A stretch of 64,000 nt of DNA, taken from the NCBI GenBank assembly GCA_903824665.1, contig CAIJXT010000030.1, forward strand, positions 186,001 to 250,000, read 5' to 3'. Below are positions 17,600-27,204 of the stretch, in pieces (the first letter of the stretch is position 1; every line of letters starts with the position of its first letter). The notes beneath the pieces are model-generated. The model was not told where the DNA came from. It saw only the letters and a list, made by a program, of their open reading frames with translations, and made no database searches. The position numbers were made by a program, and so were the translations under genes. This stretch comes from an uncultured Bacteroidota bacterium (lineage in GTDB: Bacteria; Bacteroidota; Bacteroidia; Chitinophagales; Chitinophagaceae).

Positions 17600-19804
17600 T
17601 TATGCACTCAGCATTTTTTCGAGTGAGTCGTCGTAGGCTTTTTTCCAGTCTTCGATGTATCCCCAGCTTTCTGTGTCGATGCATATTTCTTTGCTGGCAT
17701 TGACATGGCCAATCTTTGTAAAAGGTGTTCCTTTAAGTTCTGCCTCAAACATTGGGCTCAGGTCAGGATTTACAGTAACCACCACACGGCTCTGTCCCTC
17801 ACCAAACAGCGTAGCGTCTTTGCGAACACTATCGCCTGTAGTAATAGTAAAGCCAAGTCCATTCACCATTGCCGACTCCAGCAGGCAGGCAAATAGACCA
17901 CCCTCAGAAATGTCATGAGCCGATTTGATGATCTTGCCACTGATAATACGTGCAACAGTCTGCTGTATGGCATATTCCTCATCCAGATCGAAGCGGGGTG
18001 CAGGGCTGTGAGTAACACCGCATATATGGTGCAGGTACTCTGAGCAGTTGATATCGTCTGTATTTACACCCAGCAGGTATATACTGTCTCCTGCATGCTG
18101 GAAGCCCAGTGTCATTTTCTGGCTCAGAGAGTCCATCACACCCACCATACCAATAGTAGGTGTCGGGTACACAGGGCCATCCTCACTCTGGTTGTAGAAG
18201 CTTACATTGCCACCCGTAACAGGTGTATCCAACTTGCGACAGGCATCGCCCATACCCTTTATGGCATGTACAAATTGGTAGTACACCTCCGGATTGTAAG
18301 GGTTGCCAAAGTTGAGACAGTTAGTGATCGCTACTGGCTGCGCTCCGCTGCATACTATATTGCGGGCCGCCTCGCAAACGGCTATCATTGCACCCTTGTA
18401 AGGGTCGGCATATACATACCTGCTGTTGCAGTCTGTAGTTACGGCAAGCCCTTTTTCTGAGCCATGCACGCGTACCACAGGCGCATCGCTTGGGGCGTTG
18501 GTATGGGTGTTGCCGGTGCCTACCATGCTGTCGTACTGGTCATATATCCAGTGCTTAGAGGCTATGTTGGGCAGTTGTATGAGCTCGTATGCCACACCTT
18601 TCAGATCGGCAGGTACCGCTATAGAAGACGGGTCGAATTTAGCAATTTCTTTAAGATATCCTGGCTCGTGATATTCTCTTGTATATATGGGAGCACCGCC
18701 ACCCAGTACCAGACTTTCGGCAGGTACATCGGCCACGAGTTCACCATTCATGTAGTACTTCAGGTTTGCATCGGTGGTTACTTCACCTATCTGTACACAG
18801 TGTATGTCCCATTTGTCGAAGATCTGCTGCACCTCTGCTTCGCGGCCTTTCTTCACCACTATAAGCATGCGCTCCTGGCTTTCGCTCAGCAGCATCTCCC
18901 AGGGTTTCATATTGTCCTGGCGTGTAGGTACTTTATCCAGGTGAATGATCATGCCATGCTCGCCTTTGGCACTCATCTCGCTGGTGCTGCACGTGATGCC
19001 GGCTGCACCCATATCCTGCATGCCTATAAGTGCACCTGTTGGTATCATCTCCAGACAAGCTTCCAGCAGCTTCTTCTCCTCAAAGGGGTCGCCCACCTGT
19101 ACTGCAGGCAGCTGCTCTGCACTGTTCTCGCTGATGTCGGCCGATGCGAATGATGCGCCACCGATTCCATCCTTGCCGGTAGATGCGCCAACGATGTATA
19201 CCGGGTTGCCCGCGCCATGCGATGTAGCAGATACTGTTTGTCCTACACGTACCACGCCCACACTCATTGCATTTACTAGCGGATTGGTCTGATAGCAGCT
19301 TTCAAAGTATGCCTCGCCGGCTACTGTAGGTACACCAAAGCAGTTGCCATAGTGCCCTATACCCTTAACCACACCCTTCACCAGCCACCTGGTTTTGGGA
19401 TTATCTACCTTGCCAAACCGCAGCGAGTTGAGCGAGGCAATAGGCCGGGCACCCATTGTGAATATATCGCGATGTATACCGCCCACACCCGTAGCAGCAC
19501 CCTGAAAGGGCTCTATAGCTGAGGGGTGGTTATGACTTTCGATCTTGAATACGCAGCCCCAGCCATCGCCAATGTCAACGAGGCCGGCATTTTCTTCGCC
19601 AGCTTTAACCAGGAGTTTGGCACCATCGCGTGGGAGTGTTTTGAGCCAGGTAATGGAGTTTTTGTAGCTGCAATGCTCGCTCCACATTACGGAGTACATA
19701 GCTGCTTCAGTGAAATTGGGTGTTCTGCCCAGTATCTCTTTGATTTTTTCAAATTCTTCTTCGCGAAGGCCCAGTTTCTGAGCTTGTTCGAGTGTGGCTT
19801 GCAT
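17600..19804 (-). CDS. purL: Phosphoribosylformylglycinamidine synthase subunit PurL
   Basis: At 734 residues this is the short PurL form, the ATP-dependent synthetase subunit that converts FGAR plus ammonia to FGAM in purine synthesis. It needs PurQ and PurS partners, which are not in this window. Recognisable parts are the N-terminal GRTPNFTEAAMYSVMWSEHC, KIESHNHPSAIEPFQGAATG with its ATP/Mg-binding residues, LNSLRFG, and the second-half repeat TDCNSRYVYADPYKGAMIAV and VTGGNVSFYNQSE. The ATG at 19804 is preferred to a TTG seven codons upstream. It diverges from the dcw operon across a long regulatory interval. Confidence 0.97.
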   Translation of the reverse strand: MQATLEQAQKLGLREEEFEKIKEILGRTPNFTEAAMYSVMWSEHCSYKNSITWLKTLPRDGAKLLVKAGEENAGLVDIGDGWGCVFKIESHNHPSAIEPFQGAATGVGGIHRDIFTMGARPIASLNSLRFGKVDNPKTRWLVKGVVKGIGHYGNCFGVPTVAGEAYFESCYQTNPLVNAMSVGVVRVGQTVSATSHGAGNPVYIVGASTGKDGIGGASFASADISENSAEQLPAVQVGDPFEEKKLLEACLEMIPTGALIGMQDMGAAGITCSTSEMSAKGEHGMIIHLDKVPTRQDNMKPWEMLLSESQERMLIVVKKGREAEVQQIFDKWDIHCVQIGEVTTDANLKYYMNGELVADVPAESLVLGGGAPIYTREYHEPGYLKEIAKFDPSSIAVPADLKGVAYELIQLPNIASKHWIYDQYDSMVGTGNTHTNAPSDAPVVRVHGSEKGLAVTTDCNSRYVYADPYKGAMIAVCEAARNIVCSGAQPVAITNCLNFGNPYNPEVYYQFVHAIKGMGDACRKLDTPVTGGNVSFYNQSEDGPVYPTPTIGMVGVMDSLSQKMTLGFQHAGDSIYLLGVNTDDINCSEYLHHICGVTHSPAPRFDLDEEYAIQQTVARIISGKIIKSAHDISEGGLFACLLESAMVNGLGFTITTGDSVRKDATLFGEGQSRVVVTVNPDLSPMFEAELKGTPFTKIGHVNASKEICIDTESWGYIEDWKKAYDDSLEKMLSA

Positions 19805-20476
19805 GGCAGCAAAGTTAATGTGCAAATGTGAGAAAGTGCCAATGCAGCAGGATTTTGTCAGAACGTCATCTGAAAGAATCGGCCTTTACAAATAAGTACC
19901 GTTATTGGGGATTATATGCCTATTGAAAGTCATTTGAGTGTCTATGCCTACACCAAATAGTAAAGGCGTCAAAAATCTCTAGTCCTCGGCACATTTACCG
20001 ATAACCTATATTTCGTGAAGTGCAGCAGCAGGTGAACAATGACTGCAGTAGTGCCTGATTGCGGGTATTGAAGCAGAGAAAGCACTTTGTGCTTGCACGG
20101 CTTTTATTGGTTGAATTTTGGGTTTTTCAGTAAAAATTGGCAAAAATCAGCATGAAAGTGGGGGATTTTATCGCCAATATTCCACCGGGAAAAGCCATTT
20201 TCTGACTCACCGGATTAGGTTATTCACAAGTTGGATATTATGAATGTGATCAGGTTTTGTATGGTGCGGAAGCAGTTACACACAGTTATTCACATTAACT
20301 CACAAGTTATCCACATTGATTCTGCAGTTTGAGAGCCTTTAATAATGCCCAAAACCGCTACAGACAAGTGTTTTACCCACCACATAGGTATGTGGATAAA
20401 GATATTGTGCTTAATACTATGTTTTTTCGTGTCAAAAGGTGTTATTTTGTGTAGAAATTATCCATCAAACGCATCA
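19805..20476. other. 672-bp intergenic interval between purL and mraZ, with DnaA boxes
   Basis: This divergent interval carries no gene I can support. An open frame does extend upstream of mraZ, but it lacks MraZ-like sequence. Its right-hand third holds four DnaA-box matches. It must also contain the purL promoter and the promoter of the dcw operon. An AAAGTGGGGG word at about 20155 recalls the GTGGG sites bound by MraZ in other bacteria, but I see only one good copy. Confidence 0.7.
20220..20399. promoter_or_regulatory. Cluster of four DnaA-box sequences
   Basis: TTATTCACA occurs at 20220-20228 and 20286-20294, TTATCCACA at 20307-20315, and its reverse complement TGTGGATAA at 20391-20399. 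The last two match the canonical 9-mer exactly and the first two differ at one position. A weaker TTATCCATC lies at 20458-20466. The sites fall within 180 bp, just before mraZ. They could be a replication origin or DnaA control of the division operon. Confidence 0.6.
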
Positions 20477-20965
20477 ATGACCAGTTTTTTAGGTGAAAGT
20501 GAAGTTGCAATGGATGCCAAAGGGCGTTTTCTGCTACCTGCGTCTATACGCAAGCAGATACCCGAAGGCTTGGGGGATAAGTTTGTCATCAACAGAGGGT
20601 TTGAAAGCTGCTTAACGATATACACGATGGATGTTTGGAATGTGATATTTGACAAAGTGAGCAGGTTAAATGATTTCAAACCGGAAGTAAGAGAGTTTAA
20701 ACGGTTGTTTCTGAATGGTGCATCGATAGTTGAGCTGGATAGCGCAGACCGAATGCTGGTATCGAAACCACTATTGGAATATGCAGGTATAGAGATCAAG
20801 TCAGACGCGGTATTGGCAGCTCAGGGCAACAAGCTGGAGTTGTGGGATAAAGTTACTTATTATAACTATCTGAAACAAAATTCAGGTGGATTCAGCAAAC
20901 TGGCTGCACAGGTGGCAAACGATTTCGGAAACCCATTTGATGTAATGCCCTATGGAATCAACTAA
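20477..20965 (+). CDS. mraZ: Division/cell-wall cluster regulator MraZ
   Basis: The 162-residue protein begins MTSFLGESEVAMDAKGRFLL, the standard MraZ start. The open frame reaches 44 codons further upstream, but that part is not MraZ-like. Two AbrB-like SpoVT/MraZ repeats are visible: EVAMDAKGRFLLPASIRKQI and its second half ASIVELDSADRMLVSKPLLEYA. MraZ is a DNA-binding repressor of its own dcw operon in bacteria where it has been studied, and affects RsmH activity. It is the first gene of the operon and overlaps rsmH by 14 bp. Confidence 0.96.
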   Translation: MTSFLGESEVAMDAKGRFLLPASIRKQIPEGLGDKFVINRGFESCLTIYTMDVWNVIFDKVSRLNDFKPEVREFKRLFLNGASIVELDSADRMLVSKPLLEYAGIEIKSDAVLAAQGNKLELWDKVTYYNYLKQNSGGFSKLAAQVANDFGNPFDVMPYGIN

Positions 20966-21857
20966 TTATTACCATACAACGGTACTGCTGAAAGAGGCTG
21001 TAGACGGACTGAATATAAAGGAAGATGGAGTGTATGTAGACGCAACATTCGGTGGTGGTGGACATAGCAGGGAGATACTGGCAAGGCTGGGCAAGAAGGG
21101 AAAGCTAATAGCGTTTGATCAGGACGAAGACGCATGGAAGAACAAACCGGATGATGAAAGGCTGATACAGGTTACAGAGAATTTTAAATACATGCGTCGT
21201 TTTCTGAGGCTGCACGGACATAGTGAGGTAGATGGGATACTGGCAGATTTGGGTGTAAGTTCTTTTCAGTTTGATACAGCAGAACGGGGATTTTCGATAC
21301 GGTTTGACGGGCCGCTGGATATGCGAATGGATAAGCGCGGAGAGCTTACGGCTGCAGAGATCATTCGCAAATACACAGAGCCACAGTTGCATCAGCTGTT
21401 TGAGCAATATGGCGAAGTGCGTAACTCGAAGCAACTGGCAAAACACATAGTCACACAGCGTGGCGCACAGAAGGTAACAACCATTGCTGCACTGAAAGCA
21501 CTGCTGGGGCCGGTAATGCGGGGCAACCCAAACAAGTATCTGGCTCAGGTTTTTCAGGCATTGAGAATAGAGGTGAACGATGAACTGGGTGTGCTTAAAG
21601 AATTGCTGACACAGTCGGCAGTGAGCCTGAAACCGGGAGGAAGATTAAGTGTGATATCATTTCACTCGCTGGAAGACAGGCTGGTGAAACATTATATAAA
21701 ACGGGGCCGTTGGGATGAAGCAGGAGAATACGAAGAGGCAATAACACCGCCGATGCGACCGGTAACTGCTAAGCCGATAGAACCAACAGAAACAGAAATA
21801 AAAAACAATCCGAGAGCCAGAAGCGCCCGGCTGCGGATTGGAGAAAAAACAGGGTAG
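20952..21857 (+). CDS. rsmH: 16S rRNA (cytosine(1402)-N4)-methyltransferase
   Basis: The 301-residue protein methylates N4 of C1402 in 16S rRNA. Its SAM loop is DATFGGGGHS (residues 30-39), followed by LIAFDQDEDAW. Family motifs ILADLGVSSFQFD, ERGFSIRFDGPLDMRMD and LSVISFHSLEDRLVK are all present. Its first 14 bases overlap the end of mraZ, so translation is probably coupled. Length is normal for the family. Confidence 0.97.
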   Translation: MESTNYYHTTVLLKEAVDGLNIKEDGVYVDATFGGGGHSREILARLGKKGKLIAFDQDEDAWKNKPDDERLIQVTENFKYMRRFLRLHGHSEVDGILADLGVSSFQFDTAERGFSIRFDGPLDMRMDKRGELTAAEIIRKYTEPQLHQLFEQYGEVRNSKQLAKHIVTQRGAQKVTTIAALKALLGPVMRGNPNKYLAQVFQALRIEVNDELGVLKELLTQSAVSLKPGGRLSVISFHSLEDRLVKHYIKRGRWDEAGEYEEAITPPMRPVTAKPIEPTETEIKNNPRARSARLRIGEKTG

Positions 21858-21887: not shown

Positions 21888-22334
21888 GTGGAGGAGAAGG
21901 GGAAGAAGACCGGTAAGCGCAACAGTCGCAGCAGCACAGACCAAAACGCTCCTACAACGGAGCCCATTATAGCGCGTATGAGCAGCGAGGAAACAATAGT
22001 GCAGCCGGACGGGCTGTCACCTGCGCAGAGAGTGAGAAGCGACTGGAAGTCGTTGGTGGAGAAAGTGTCTTATAAAGCGATCGTAAATAATATTCCATTT
22101 CTTGCTTTTCTGGTGTTGTTGTGTGTGCTGTATATCAGCAATAGTCAGCGTGCTATAGACATGCAACGAGAGCTGAACGCTAAGAACAAAGAACTTAAGG
22201 AACTGCGGTGGAAGTACATGGACGTGAAGTCGCAACTGATGTATGTAAAGACAGAAACACAAGTGATGAAAAATGCCGAAAAACTGGGTCTTAAACCCTC
22301 GTTGATGCCGGCATATAAAATAAAGAACAAGTAA
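21888..22334 (+). CDS. ftsL: FtsL-like cell division protein
   Basis: The 148-residue bitopic protein has a charged cytoplasmic segment of about 65 residues, a single membrane helix (about 68-84, NIPFLAFLVLLCVLYISNSQ) and a periplasmic coiled coil (about 88-130) rich in heptad Leu/Met. That architecture and the position between rsmH and ftsI identify the divergent Bacteroidota FtsL, which joins FtsQ and FtsB in the divisome. It starts at a GTG; no suitable ATG lies near. The gap to ftsI is 2 bp. Confidence 0.85.
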   Translation: MEEKGKKTGKRNSRSSTDQNAPTTEPIIARMSSEETIVQPDGLSPAQRVRSDWKSLVEKVSYKAIVNNIPFLAFLVLLCVLYISNSQRAIDMQRELNAKNKELKELRWKYMDVKSQLMYVKTETQVMKNAEKLGLKPSLMPAYKIKNK

Positions 22335-22336
22335 AA

Positions 22337-24457
22337 GTGAAAAGCAACGCCAACACAAATGTGAAGAAGGACATCAGGTTCAGGGTGTACGTAGCGTTTA
22401 CGTTCATCTTCCTGCTTGGGTGTGCCATAATTGTACAGGCTGCGCTCATACAGGCTAAGGAAGGGCCGCGTTTGCGCTCTATGGCGAGAGAAATGCATAC
22501 ACGGTTTGATACACTGATGGCAGAAAGGGGCAACATACTGAATGAAGACGGCATATTGCTCAGTTCATCTATACCGGATTTTGAGGTGCATATTGATTTC
22601 TCAGTTATTGACTCTGCCCTTTTTGAAAAGAAAATTGATACCCTGTGCACCTGTATGGCTGCCCTGTTTGTAAAGAAGGGAAAGACAGCTGAGGAATATA
22701 AAGAAGAGTTTGTGCGCGCCTACGACGCCGGTAACAAATACTATCTGCTGGACCGCAAACTGAAATACTTTGAGTATGAGGCGCTGCGTGGTTTTCCGAT
22801 CTTTAACAAAGGGAAAGCTAAAGGTGGATTTATAGCAGAACCAAAGGAGAAGAGAAAACTGCCCTATGACAAGCTGGCAAGGCGTACGCTGGGGATTTTC
22901 CGTGATAGCAATATCACCGGACTGGAAGCAAAATACAACAAGTACCTGGTGGGTGAGAATGGACGCAGGGTGGTACAGAAAGCCACTGGTAGTGTATGGG
23001 TGCCAATTGAAGGCAGCGAGGTAGATCCGGTAAACGGCCGCGACATTATCACCACAATAGACATGGATGTGCAATCTGTAGCGCATCATGCACTACTCAG
23101 CAAGCTGCAGGAACATGAGTGTCAGTATGGAACATGCATAGTGATGGAAGTGGCAACCGGGAAAATACGCACAATTGTAAATCTGGGCAGGCAGGAAGAT
23201 GGTAGCTACGACGAAGACTTCAACTATGCTACGATCCCTACTGAACCCGGCTCTACCTTCAAGTTGGCTACACTGATATCGCTGCTGGGCGATAAGAAGA
23301 TAAATGTGAACCAGAATGTGGATATTCAGGGTGGCAGAAAGCAGTTTGGCAACAGGCTGATGTCTGATTCTCACCCTGATGCCAGGCTGGGCACGATGCC
23401 GATCTGGAAAGCATATGCCATATCCAGTAATGTAGGAATGGCCAAGCTGGCAGATATGTATTACCATGACAATCCGACGGCATTTGTAGAAAACCTGAAG
23501 AAGTTGCAACTCGACAAACTTACCGGTATTGATCTGCTGGGCGAGCGCAGACCATTTATTACCAGTCCAAGCGGTAAGCTATGGAGCGGAACTACGCTGC
23601 CCTGGATGGCCACGGGCTACGGCATAATGATAACACCGCTGCATACCTGTATGCTGTACAATGCTGTGGCCAACAATGGAAAAATGATGCGCCCCTATCT
23701 TGTGAGCGCTATCAGGGAGTATGGCAAGGATGTAGTGCGGTATGAACCAAAGGTTGTTGCTACGATAGGCGATTCGGCAACTGTGGCACAACTGAAGATA
23801 TGCACCCGTGCTGTTGTTACAGATGGTACCGGCAAGGGCATAGAATCGCCATATTACACCATGGCGGGCAAAACCGGAACAGCACAGGTGGCCGATAAGG
23901 GCATCAGGTATACTGATGGCGTATACCAGGGATCTTATGTAGGGTATATGCCTGCAGAAAATCCAAAGTATACGATCTGCGTCGTGATTCGTACCAAGGC
24001 GCATTCTGCATCTTATTATGGCGGAACCATTGCAGCGCCTGTGTTCCGTATGGTAGCCGATAAGATATTCTCCAGCAACATGGGTGCATGGTCTGCACCA
24101 CTGGACAGCATGGCAAAAACAGGCTCGGGCAACATACCAGCAAGAGCTGCTACTGCCGGTACTTACAATGTACTGTTGGGTACACTGAACAGAAAGCTGC
24201 CAATAGCCAGCGACTACAGCAATGCGATGGTGCAATTGGTTACCGATACCAACCGGCACACAGAGGTAATGCCCAAGCATGTATACCGCGGCATAATGCC
24301 GGATGTGAAGGGGATGACATTGAAAGACGCTGTGTACATGCTGGAGAACTATGGCATGCATGTACAGGTGAAAGGAAAGGGGCGGGTGCAAACACAATCG
24401 GTGCCGGAAGGGACAAGGTTATATAAAGGACAACAGATAATACTGCAATTGAGCTAA
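22337..24457 (+). CDS. ftsI: Peptidoglycan transpeptidase FtsI (PBP3-like) with C-terminal PASTA domain
   Basis: The 706-residue class B penicillin-binding protein cross-links septal peptidoglycan. A membrane anchor spans about residues 16-37, then comes the dimerisation/pedestal region. The transpeptidase domain has all three motifs: STFK (Ser306, Lys309), SSN (363-365) and KTG (512-514). A single PASTA domain (about 645-706, YRGIMPDVKGMTLKDAVYML) ends the protein; many proteobacterial FtsI lack it. The start is GTG, 2 bp after ftsL, and the stop shares one base with the murE ATG. Confidence 0.95.
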   Translation: MKSNANTNVKKDIRFRVYVAFTFIFLLGCAIIVQAALIQAKEGPRLRSMAREMHTRFDTLMAERGNILNEDGILLSSSIPDFEVHIDFSVIDSALFEKKIDTLCTCMAALFVKKGKTAEEYKEEFVRAYDAGNKYYLLDRKLKYFEYEALRGFPIFNKGKAKGGFIAEPKEKRKLPYDKLARRTLGIFRDSNITGLEAKYNKYLVGENGRRVVQKATGSVWVPIEGSEVDPVNGRDIITTIDMDVQSVAHHALLSKLQEHECQYGTCIVMEVATGKIRTIVNLGRQEDGSYDEDFNYATIPTEPGSTFKLATLISLLGDKKINVNQNVDIQGGRKQFGNRLMSDSHPDARLGTMPIWKAYAISSNVGMAKLADMYYHDNPTAFVENLKKLQLDKLTGIDLLGERRPFITSPSGKLWSGTTLPWMATGYGIMITPLHTCMLYNAVANNGKMMRPYLVSAIREYGKDVVRYEPKVVATIGDSATVAQLKICTRAVVTDGTGKGIESPYYTMAGKTGTAQVADKGIRYTDGVYQGSYVGYMPAENPKYTICVVIRTKAHSASYYGGTIAAPVFRMVADKIFSSNMGAWSAPLDSMAKTGSGNIPARAATAGTYNVLLGTLNRKLPIASDYSNAMVQLVTDTNRHTEVMPKHVYRGIMPDVKGMTLKDAVYMLENYGMHVQVKGKGRVQTQSVPEGTRLYKGQQIILQLS

Positions 24458-25923
24458 TGCAAACACTAAAAAACATATTGACTAACGTAAACCCATTGCA
24501 GGTGCATGGCGATCTATCGGTATCGGTAGGCAGTATCTGCATCGACTCGCGCAGGGTGGTATCCGGTAGTTTGTTTGTTGCTGTGAGGGGTACATTGGCA
24601 GATGGGCATGGCTTTATTGGCAAAGCGATAGCGTTGGGTGCAACGGTAATTGTCTGCGAAATATTGCCGGACGAGCTTGCAACAGCAATTACTTATGTAC
24701 AGGTAGAAGATAGTGCCCTGGCAACAGGATTGCTGGCAGATGCATTTTATGAGCACCCATCGTCGGGGCTACAGGTAATAGGGATAACCGGCACTAACGG
24801 AAAGACTACTACAGCAACATTGCTCTACAAGCTATTCGAAGCACTTGGGTATAAATGTGGTCTTATCTCTACCGTTCAGAATCATATCCACACGCGTATA
24901 GTTCAGGCTACACATACTACACCCGATGCTGTAGCGGTACACGCCCTGCTAAGTGAGATGGCTGATGCAGGATGTACCCATGTGTTTATGGAAGTAAGCT
25001 CGCATGCAGTACACCAGCACCGTATTGCCGGTATAAAGTTTGCCGGCGGTGTTTTTACCAATATTACACACGATCACCTTGATTATCATAAAACCTTCGA
25101 CGAGTATATCAGGGTAAAAAAGATGTTCTTTGATGGATTGCCGGCAGGATCTTTTGCACTCACCAATGCCGATGACAAGCGTGGTATGGTGATGCTGCAA
25201 AACACACGTGCAGAGCGCTGCGCTTACAGTTTGCGTACACCTGCTACTGTGAAGGGAAAGGTACTGGAAAATAACCTGACCGGTCTGGTGATGATTGTAG
25301 ACGGGCTGGAGGCGCATTTCAGGATGATTGGCACTTTCAATGCCTACAACTTGCTGGCGGTATATGGAACAGCTGTATTGCTTGGCGAAGATAAAATGAA
25401 CGTGCTGGCAGTATTGAGTGGCTTGCACGGTGCCGCTGGAAGGTTCGAGACAATTATGTCGCCAACTGATAAGATACTGGGTATCGTAGACTATGCCCAT
25501 ACACCTGATGCACTGATCAATGTACTGGCAACGATCAATCAATTGAGGACCAGCGGACAGCAGCTGATTACTGTTGTGGGCTGTGGAGGTGACCGCGATA
25601 CTACCAAGCGACCTGTAATGGGGCAGGTAGCCTGTGAGCACAGCGATAAAGCAATACTGACCTCAGACAACCCGCGTAGTGAAGACCCGGAAACGATACT
25701 CAATGATATGGAATCGGGATTGACACTGGCACAAAAACGCAAAAGCCTAAGGATCACAGATAGAAGAGAAGCAATCAAAGTGGCCTGCACCCTGGCGCAA
25801 CCCGGAGACATAGTTCTGATCGCTGGCAAAGGGCATGAAGATTACCAGGAGATAAAAGGTGTGAAACACCACTTTGACGATAGAGAAGTACTGACTGAAG
25901 TTTTTAATACACTCAATAAATAA
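24457..25923 (+). CDS. murE: UDP-MurNAc-L-Ala-D-Glu:meso-diaminopimelate ligase
   Basis: The 488-residue Mur ligase adds the third residue of the peptidoglycan stem peptide. The ATP loop is GITGTNGKTTT (109-119). The carbamylated-lysine region and EVSSHAVHQHRI are present. The specificity motif reads DNPR (404-407) followed by SEDP, which in characterised MurE enzymes selects meso-diaminopimelate rather than lysine. The ATG overlaps the ftsI stop by one base. Confidence 0.96.
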   Translation: MQTLKNILTNVNPLQVHGDLSVSVGSICIDSRRVVSGSLFVAVRGTLADGHGFIGKAIALGATVIVCEILPDELATAITYVQVEDSALATGLLADAFYEHPSSGLQVIGITGTNGKTTTATLLYKLFEALGYKCGLISTVQNHIHTRIVQATHTTPDAVAVHALLSEMADAGCTHVFMEVSSHAVHQHRIAGIKFAGGVFTNITHDHLDYHKTFDEYIRVKKMFFDGLPAGSFALTNADDKRGMVMLQNTRAERCAYSLRTPATVKGKVLENNLTGLVMIVDGLEAHFRMIGTFNAYNLLAVYGTAVLLGEDKMNVLAVLSGLHGAAGRFETIMSPTDKILGIVDYAHTPDALINVLATINQLRTSGQQLITVVGCGGDRDTTKRPVMGQVACEHSDKAILTSDNPRSEDPETILNDMESGLTLAQKRKSLRITDRREAIKVACTLAQPGDIVLIAGKGHEDYQEIKGVKHHFDDREVLTEVFNTLNK

Positions 25924-25932
25924 CTGGCTGTA

Positions 25933-27204
25933 ATGCTGTACTACTTGTTCACATATCTGCGCGACTCTATCCACCTGGCTGGAGCAGGTGTGTTTAACTA
26001 CATCACCTTCAGGGTAGCGATGGCAATCATATTGTCATTGGTCATCTCTATGGTGTTCGGCAAGCGGCTGATCAAATTCCTGCAATACAAACAGATAGGA
26101 GAAACTATCAGAGATCTGGGCCTTGCAGGAGAGCAGCAGAAGAAAGGTACTCCTACAATGGGTGGACTCATCATCATTGCATCTATACTGATACCTACAC
26201 TGTTGTTTGCAAGAGTGCTGAATGTGTACATACTGCTGATGCTTGTATCTACAGTCTGGTTGGGGCTTGTAGGGTTTCTTGATGACTATATCAAAGTTTT
26301 TAAGAAGAATAAAGAAGGTCTTGCCGGACGTTTCAAGATAATGGGCCAGATAGGACTTGGCATTATCGTTGGTCTTACAATGTATTACAATGATCATGTA
26401 GTGATCAGCAGGGAAGTAACCAAAGGTGACAGTGGTGTGCACAGTGCTGCCGAAAAACTGGAGCCGGGCAGGTTTGTACGTAAGGATGATAAAGGGCGCG
26501 AACATACCTATATCAATGTCCGCACAGCTACAACAACGATACCTTTTCTGAAAACACACGAATTCAGGTATGAGAAGATTGCTGCAGTATTCGGAGAGAA
26601 GAATGTGGCACTTACCACTCCCATAATTTACATTCTCTTCGTCATATTTATCATTGTTGCCGTATCTAACGGCGCCAATATGACGGACGGGATAGATGGG
26701 CTGGCCACCGGTACATCGGCGATAATAGGGGTTTGTCTGGGTGTGTTTGCATATGTATCGGGCAACTACGTGTTTGCGAGTTATCTGGGTATAATGGACA
26801 TACCTAATCTTGGAGAACTGTCCATATTTATAGGGGCGTTCGTTGGGGCTTGTGTGGGTTTTCTTTGGTACAACGCCTATCCGGCACAGGTATTCATGGG
26901 CGATACCGGTAGCCTTGCATTAGGCGGTATAATAGCATCGCTCGCTATCATAGTGCGTAAAGAGTTGCTGATCCCCATTATTTGCGGCATTTTTCTGGTC
27001 GAGAATCTGTCAGTGATATTGCAGGTGTGGTACTTCAAGCGTACAAAGAAAAAATATGGAGAAGGAAGACGCATTTTTCTGATGTCTCCGCTGCACCATC
27101 ATTATCAAAAGAAAGGCTATCACGAATCTAAAATTGTAACCCGCTTCTGGATCATTGGCATCCTGCTGGCGATATTGAGTATAGTAACATTAAAACTGCA
27201 GTAA
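25933..27204 (+). CDS. mraY: Phospho-N-acetylmuramoyl-pentapeptide transferase
   Basis: The 423-residue membrane enzyme makes lipid I from UDP-MurNAc-pentapeptide and undecaprenyl phosphate. About ten membrane segments are visible. Catalytic acidic motifs are FLDDYIKV (Asp117, Asp118) and [12 protein letters not shown] (249-260); the conserved [12 protein letters not shown] follows near the end. It is about 60 residues longer than the E. coli enzyme, because of a hydrophilic insertion at about 155-215 that includes SRE...[16 protein letters not shown]. Related insertions occur in Bacteroidota. The stop overlaps the murD start by one base. Confidence 0.96.

Follow-up and report, generated by a model that had tools for sequence, protein, structure and literature searches.

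The mraZ locus and its box cluster

The draft genome consists of 4,728,622 bases in 35 contigs, and the window analysed here is a stretch of 64,000 nucleotides from one of them (C30:186001-250000). Positions refer to the window unless a contig is named, and negative positions are distances upstream of mraZ. A cluster of DnaA-type boxes is situated between a divergent purL-like gene and mraZ, the first gene of the dcw operon (Table 1); dnaA is located on a separate contig, C19. Among the best 80 rsmH matches listed, the closest named relatives were uncultured Bacteroidetes MAGs (82% and 80%) and Flavipsychrobacter (74%), followed by Chitinophagaceae, which makes a Chitinophagaceae-type Bacteroidota the probable source. 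The purL-like gene was rejected as a regulatory target and is probably not one, because the sister genome G215 retains the array beside mraZ next to a different neighbour.

Table 1. Features of the mraZ locus and the BUS-like element near nadA (window positions unless a contig is named)
Feature	Position	Strand	Remarks
purL-like gene	17600..19825	-	divergent; Pfam AIRS and FGAR-AT linker domains
DnaA-type box TTATTCACA	20220..20228	+	257 bp before mraZ; outlier upstream of the array
Array box 1, TTATTCACA	20286..20294	+	
Array box 2, weak, TAACTCACA	20296..20304	+	10 bp after box 1
Array box 3, exact TTATCCACA	20307..20315	+	11 bp after box 2
Inverted DnaA-type box, exact TTATCCACA	20391..20399	-	86 bp before mraZ
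MraZ operator-like GTG repeats	20429..20453	+	copies at 20429, 20439 and 20449; 10-bp pitch
TTATTTTG, possible Bacteroidota -7 promoter element	20442..20449	+	conserved column block in the alignment of relatives
mraZ	20477..20965	+	first dcw gene; Pfam PF02381
rsmH	20952-21857	+	Pfam, ORFs
ftsL-like gene	21888-22334	+	Pfam, ORFs
ftsI-type PBP gene	22337-24457	+	Pfam, ORFs
Mur ligase gene (murE-like)	24457-25923	+	Pfam, ORFs
mraY	25933-27204	+	Pfam, ORFs
BUS-like element CACACCCTTAATAGTAATAG	C1:63516-63535		single copy in own genome

The original prediction had listed four boxes in this interval, three forward (20220, 20286 and 20307) and one inverted (20391), and all four are present. It had overlooked the weak centre box TAACTCACA at 20296; once this box is counted, the segment 20286-20315 forms a head-to-tail array with a pitch of 10 and 11 bp. 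The weaker fifth box that it had placed at 20458, TTATCCATC, carries two mismatches, was rejected as a DnaA box and was excluded from the box count. Between the inverted box and mraZ, three GTG repeats at 10-bp pitch were found, in line with the three or more GTGK repeats expected of an MraZ operator. The element TTATTTTG resembles TAnnTTTG, which we take to be the Bacteroidota -7 consensus. Judged by their sequences, MraZ-type and DnaA-type sites coexist at the mraZ promoter.

Genome-wide, the nonamer TTATYCACA occurs in 92 copies, and the four within 180 bp at mraZ are the only cluster of such boxes in the genome; the next closest pair, on contig C31, is separated by 389 bp. Under a Poisson model, the estimate for a cluster of this kind at any place in the genome was about 6e-7, which agrees with the original prediction that the cluster is far from expected by chance. 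Over the full window, boxes with at most one mismatch were about as numerous as expected (20 found, 18.5 expected), which would suit a chance or compositional origin of the boxes; what is unusual is their clustering.

Conservation and geometry in relatives

Conservation across the family was assessed with one genome from each of 46 of the 48 family genera encountered, g62 and g63 being left out. A forward box was found in 40/46 genera, an inverted box likewise in 40/46, both together in 35/46, and the GTG triple at 10-bp pitch in 42/46, whereas dinucleotide shuffles gave means of 0.90 for the forward box, 0.42 for the inverted box and 0.01 for both. Within the genus, the forward box was present in all 33 loci and the inverted box in 31 of 33 (exact TTATCCACA in 30, one mismatch in 1, absent in 2), so that the boxes, whose presence in sister species was to be checked according to the original prediction, were kept and not lost. 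A set of named relatives was compiled from the best 80 loci listed, of which 58 were retained; loci named as or judged to be of other groups (19) and loci with a cut upstream region were dropped after the box results had been seen. The mraZ gene was located in 79 of the 80 loci, and in 57 of the 58 in a further count. At least two boxes were present in 52/58 of the retained upstream regions, compared with 10/1368 control windows from the same loci. This conservation refutes chance, which we regard as a practically negligible explanation. The array varied too much to be captured by a DNA pattern, the best of which matched 5 of the 33 genus loci.

The module is incomplete or absent in part of the group. 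One or both box types were missing in 11 of the 46 genera. Among 13 loci named Mucilaginibacter, Pedobacter or Daejeonella, the inverted box was found 75-112 bp before mraZ in four and a forward box at -235..-125 in none, and no inverted box was in place in four loci named Flavobacterium, Hyunsoonleella or Flavobacteriaceae; most Sphingobacteriales- and Flavobacteriaceae-named loci were without the module. In a class-level set of 30 loci, in several of which the mraZ start codon is uncertain, an inverted box (no more than one mismatch, at 75-112 bp before mraZ) was found in five, belonging to families f53 and f43 and to the own family, while GTGG repeats, unlike the inverted box, were widespread. 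Given the incomplete genera and the Sphingobacteriales and Flavobacteriaceae loci without it, dcw control in Bacteroidota can do without the module.

Two further observations were made in these sets. In families f45 and f50 (Bacteroidia), five loci (L239, L243, L245, L247 and L252) have a forward TTATCAACA upstream of the first GTGG of the MraZ-type repeats, at a distance of exactly 11 bp; it would be either a DnaA-like box of weak match or part of an extended MraZ site. On contig C67 of genome G007 (L069), a second rsmH, 51% identical, is accompanied by its own mraZ and an inverted TTATCCACA at -86; this copy is perhaps a contamination of the assembly (4% estimated).

Strand and position of the boxes were tabulated for 109 non-redundant upstream regions, with several boxes from one array entering the counts. 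At -225..-151 there were 94 forward and 4 inverted boxes, and at -100..-76 there were 64 inverted and 3 forward boxes; binned by position, the relatives showed no general counterpart to the outlying box at 20220. The inverted box usually lies 80-97 bp before mraZ in relatives. With a relaxed motif, tandem spacings were mainly 10, 11, 20, 21 and 31 bp (157 forward-strand and 17 reverse-strand sites), a pitch of 10 or 11 bp corresponding to a gap of 1 or 2 bp between boxes. Between the inverted box and the forward box closest to it, distances clustered near 81, 91-93 and 102 bp. Their period of about 10.75 bp (R 0.68, n=35) would place array and inverted box on the same face of the helix, and is given as a description, not as a p-value, because the 35 genomes are related. 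Measured from the GTGG contained in the inverted box, the first downstream GTGG copy was 36 bp away in 49 of 64 regions.

This fixed spacing to the MraZ repeats, together with the GTGG that the inverted site shares with them, would fit the view that a regulator other than DnaA, MraZ for instance, uses the boxes or at any rate the inverted box. That view is nevertheless improbable. Conservation extends over the whole 9-mer, with A or T in third place (TTWTCCACA), the inverted site stands off the 10-bp GTG register (offsets 26, 36 and 56), the forward boxes lie on the opposite strand, and the same 9-mer makes up clusters of boxes where relatives have their putative oriC. The E. coli mraZ upstream region also argues against it, having a GTGG triple at -44/-34/-24 with neither a forward array nor an inverted box near -95 and with a lone TTTTCCACA at -244.

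Location of the replication origin

The tight DnaA-box cluster at mraZ is what an oriC would contain, and the original prediction had offered a chromosomal origin as one reading. Several features of the own draft assembly point the same way towards oriC or a second origin: the cumulative GC-skew minimum of contig C30 lies at about 195.7 kb, some 10 kb left of the locus at 206.2 kb; the GC skew of the window flips at the cluster, where the dcw operon starts; contig C1 has negative skew to the left and right of the own nadA, with no clean flip; and each box upstream of that nadA has one mismatch. The window's flip probably reflects the long co-oriented operon that starts there. Because the skew of the own draft on C30 and C1 gives no clear answer, the origin test rests on relatives.

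GC skew was sampled in four complete genomes out of 18 single-contig family genomes listed. In all four, the sign change was near nadA and not mraZ, which was 0.5-0.74 Mb away. In G215 the skew turned from mostly negative to mostly positive at about 0.15 Mb, apart from one stretch of the wrong sign at 170-190 kb (nadA at 0.148 Mb, rsmH at 0.659 Mb). The sign changed at 7.075-7.12 Mb in G281 (nadA 7.074, rsmH 7.770 Mb) and at 0.64-0.65 Mb in G110 (nadA 0.639, rsmH 0.040 Mb). In G217 the skew was weak and slightly negative at 1.0 Mb, with a sign change at 5.57-5.62 Mb (nadA 5.566, rsmH 6.307 Mb). Across 14 complete genomes compared, nadA and rsmH were separated by 8-29% of the chromosome. A skew minimum elsewhere, which had been proposed as a check on the origin reading, was accordingly found in the four relatives, the own draft being unclear on this point.

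A conserved element upstream of nadA, TCACA-NCC-N-TAATAGTAATAG, has the layout of a basal unwinding system (BUS), namely a DnaA box, a GC step and a DnaA-trio (trio 3'-GAT-5', as defined in PMC8287927). The strict pattern CACRNCCNTARTAGTARTRG had a single match in each of 11 of 20 genomes, the own genome among them, and every match was just upstream of nadA; the reversed-pattern control gave zero matches in the 20 genomes. The nine genomes missed by the strict pattern were G215, G161, G217, G133, G269, G301, G163, G195 and G257; variant elements were present in both of the two that were inspected, G215 and G217. A DnaA box with GC step and DnaA-trio was found in 0 of 180 mraZ upstream regions, which came from two overlapping sets. 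Boxes with at most one mismatch upstream of nadA numbered 12 in G146, 5-6 in G251, G110, G293, G217 and G326, 5 in the own genome and 2 in G215, against 0.18-0.33 expected from mononucleotide shuffles. Sites resembling parS were detected in 16 of the 20 genomes and lay within 15 kb of nadA in 15 of these 16; the only site of G261 is 285 kb from nadA, and G146 has one extra far-off site.

The family's oriC is thus likely to lie upstream of nadA. In the own genome it would correspond to C1:63366-64428 (L096 3366-4428), a segment upstream of nadA with five one-mismatch DnaA boxes; mnmG and two parS-like sites are located 3-5 kb away, and a tRNA-like sequence was noticed by eye at about 3900-4030 of L096 (C1), between nadA and the next gene. 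An origin at mraZ was rejected on skew, BUS motif and parS, and we consider it very unlikely. The origin reading of the original prediction was therefore not borne out, since the skew change of relatives and the BUS-like motif lie near nadA instead; the skew change elsewhere refutes oriC, and the retention of the boxes in sister loci leaves regulation standing. On the same sequence evidence, the mraZ cluster is a conserved module separate from the predicted origin, with a forward tandem array, an inverted box and then a putative MraZ operator. A likely oriC upstream of nadA would also be an aid for orienting genomes of the family and for marker-frequency work.

Close tandem box pairs were found at 17 places in 11 of the 20 genomes, five at mraZ, three at nadA and nine elsewhere, so that such pairs are not confined to mraZ and nadA. 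The nine off-site pairs occur in G293, G305, G233, G217, G281, G076, G110 and G161 (complete or near-complete genomes) and are possibly other DnaA targets.

Proposed control of the dcw operon and comparison with known systems

The cluster is most probably a DnaA-responsive regulatory module of the mraZ/dcw promoter and not a replication origin. DnaA control of the dcw genes had been the second reading of the original prediction, and it is supported by conservation in 35/46 genera, by the geometry and by the phasing. From these data we infer DnaA occupancy, looping and a sign of regulation as follows. DnaA, most likely in its ATP form, would assemble on the forward tandem array and contact DnaA bound at the inverted box about 60-115 bp downstream, and the DNA between them would bend or loop. 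The inverted box would stand directly before a promoter open to repression by MraZ at the 10-bp-pitch operator; as it adjoins this promoter, DnaA would tune dcw transcription together with MraZ. The state of replication would thereby be linked to the supply of division and cell-wall enzymes. Activation or anti-repression is slightly favoured as the effect of DnaA, because the inverted box is upstream of the presumed core promoter and the MraZ repeats overlap it; repression is the less probable sign and a serious possibility.

The DnaA of this genome contains the motif FDHTTVIHS, which we take to match the recognition motif of E. coli DnaA. This motif, the clustering of the same boxes at nadA and the tandem-box preference of E. 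coli DnaA suggest that DnaA binds the module. No box with at most one mismatch was present in the 500 bp before the own dnaA (L001, C19:221215-224700), so that other DnaA-regulated promoters were not found in this genome; according to PMC8203912, dnaA promoters are autoregulated by DnaA in several other bacteria.

The cluster might alternatively be a site of DnaA titration or of DnaA-ATP/ADP conversion that is merely located at mraZ. Loci of the datA/DARS type have accessory-protein sites and an effect on the DnaA-ATP level; the cluster at mraZ would resemble them in being compact, in holding several boxes at a distance from oriC and in the fixed geometry of its array and inverted box. The cluster nevertheless stays at the mraZ promoter across genera, at a near-constant distance from the mraZ operator (36 bp in 49/64 regions), which counts against titration because a free-standing titration site has no need for such spacing; we hold such a function to be improbable.

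Returning to regulation by DnaA, chances are about even that Chitinophagaceae, and possibly some neighbouring Bacteroidota families, possess an old composite DnaA-MraZ switch in which a helically phased loop lets the initiator directly gate dcw expression with the replication cycle. If true, this would be a direct link of DNA replication to the making of the division machinery. Heading dcw in 35 of 46 genera, the module can be put to a direct test in culturable genera such as Chitinophaga. The literature search, which left out most subscription papers, listed no report of such a DnaA-box module at mraZ/dcw.

The arrangement was compared with four known systems. With bacterial origins carrying a BUS (PMC8287927), the mraZ region shares the presence of DnaA boxes; it differs in that the DnaA-trio was found at none of the 180 mraZ regions and the BUS-like element is upstream of nadA. 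With the autoregulatory dcw operator of MraZ in E. coli and Mollicutes (PMC5282649, PMC8475190), it shares GTGK repeats spaced 10 bp apart immediately before mraZ. The MraZ site is described as (AAAGTGKN3)3 in PMC5282649, and MraZ represses dcw in E. coli according to PMC8475190, citing Eraso 2014. The DnaA array is present here and absent from the E. coli operator region.

In vivo, E. coli DnaA favours tandem boxes with 2-3 bp between them, close matches being present at 15 of the 16 bound regions (PMC11317965, whose main text does not contain the word mraZ). Head-to-tail boxes one helical turn apart are common to those regions and to the present array; a pitch of 11 bp, with its 2-bp gap, falls within the E. 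coli preference, whereas a pitch of 10 bp, with a 1-bp gap, falls outside. The present locus differs in having three boxes and a distant inverted box, with mraZ as the target.

DnaA sites at division-gene promoters away from the origin are described for B. subtilis ftsL and Caulobacter ftsZ in PMC8203912. DnaA binding has been shown in both, whereas at mraZ we infer it. DnaA-type sites at a division-gene promoter off the origin are shared by all three; here, in contrast to ftsL and ftsZ, they stand at the head of the whole mraZ/dcw operon, as a phased array with an inverted box beside an MraZ-type operator.
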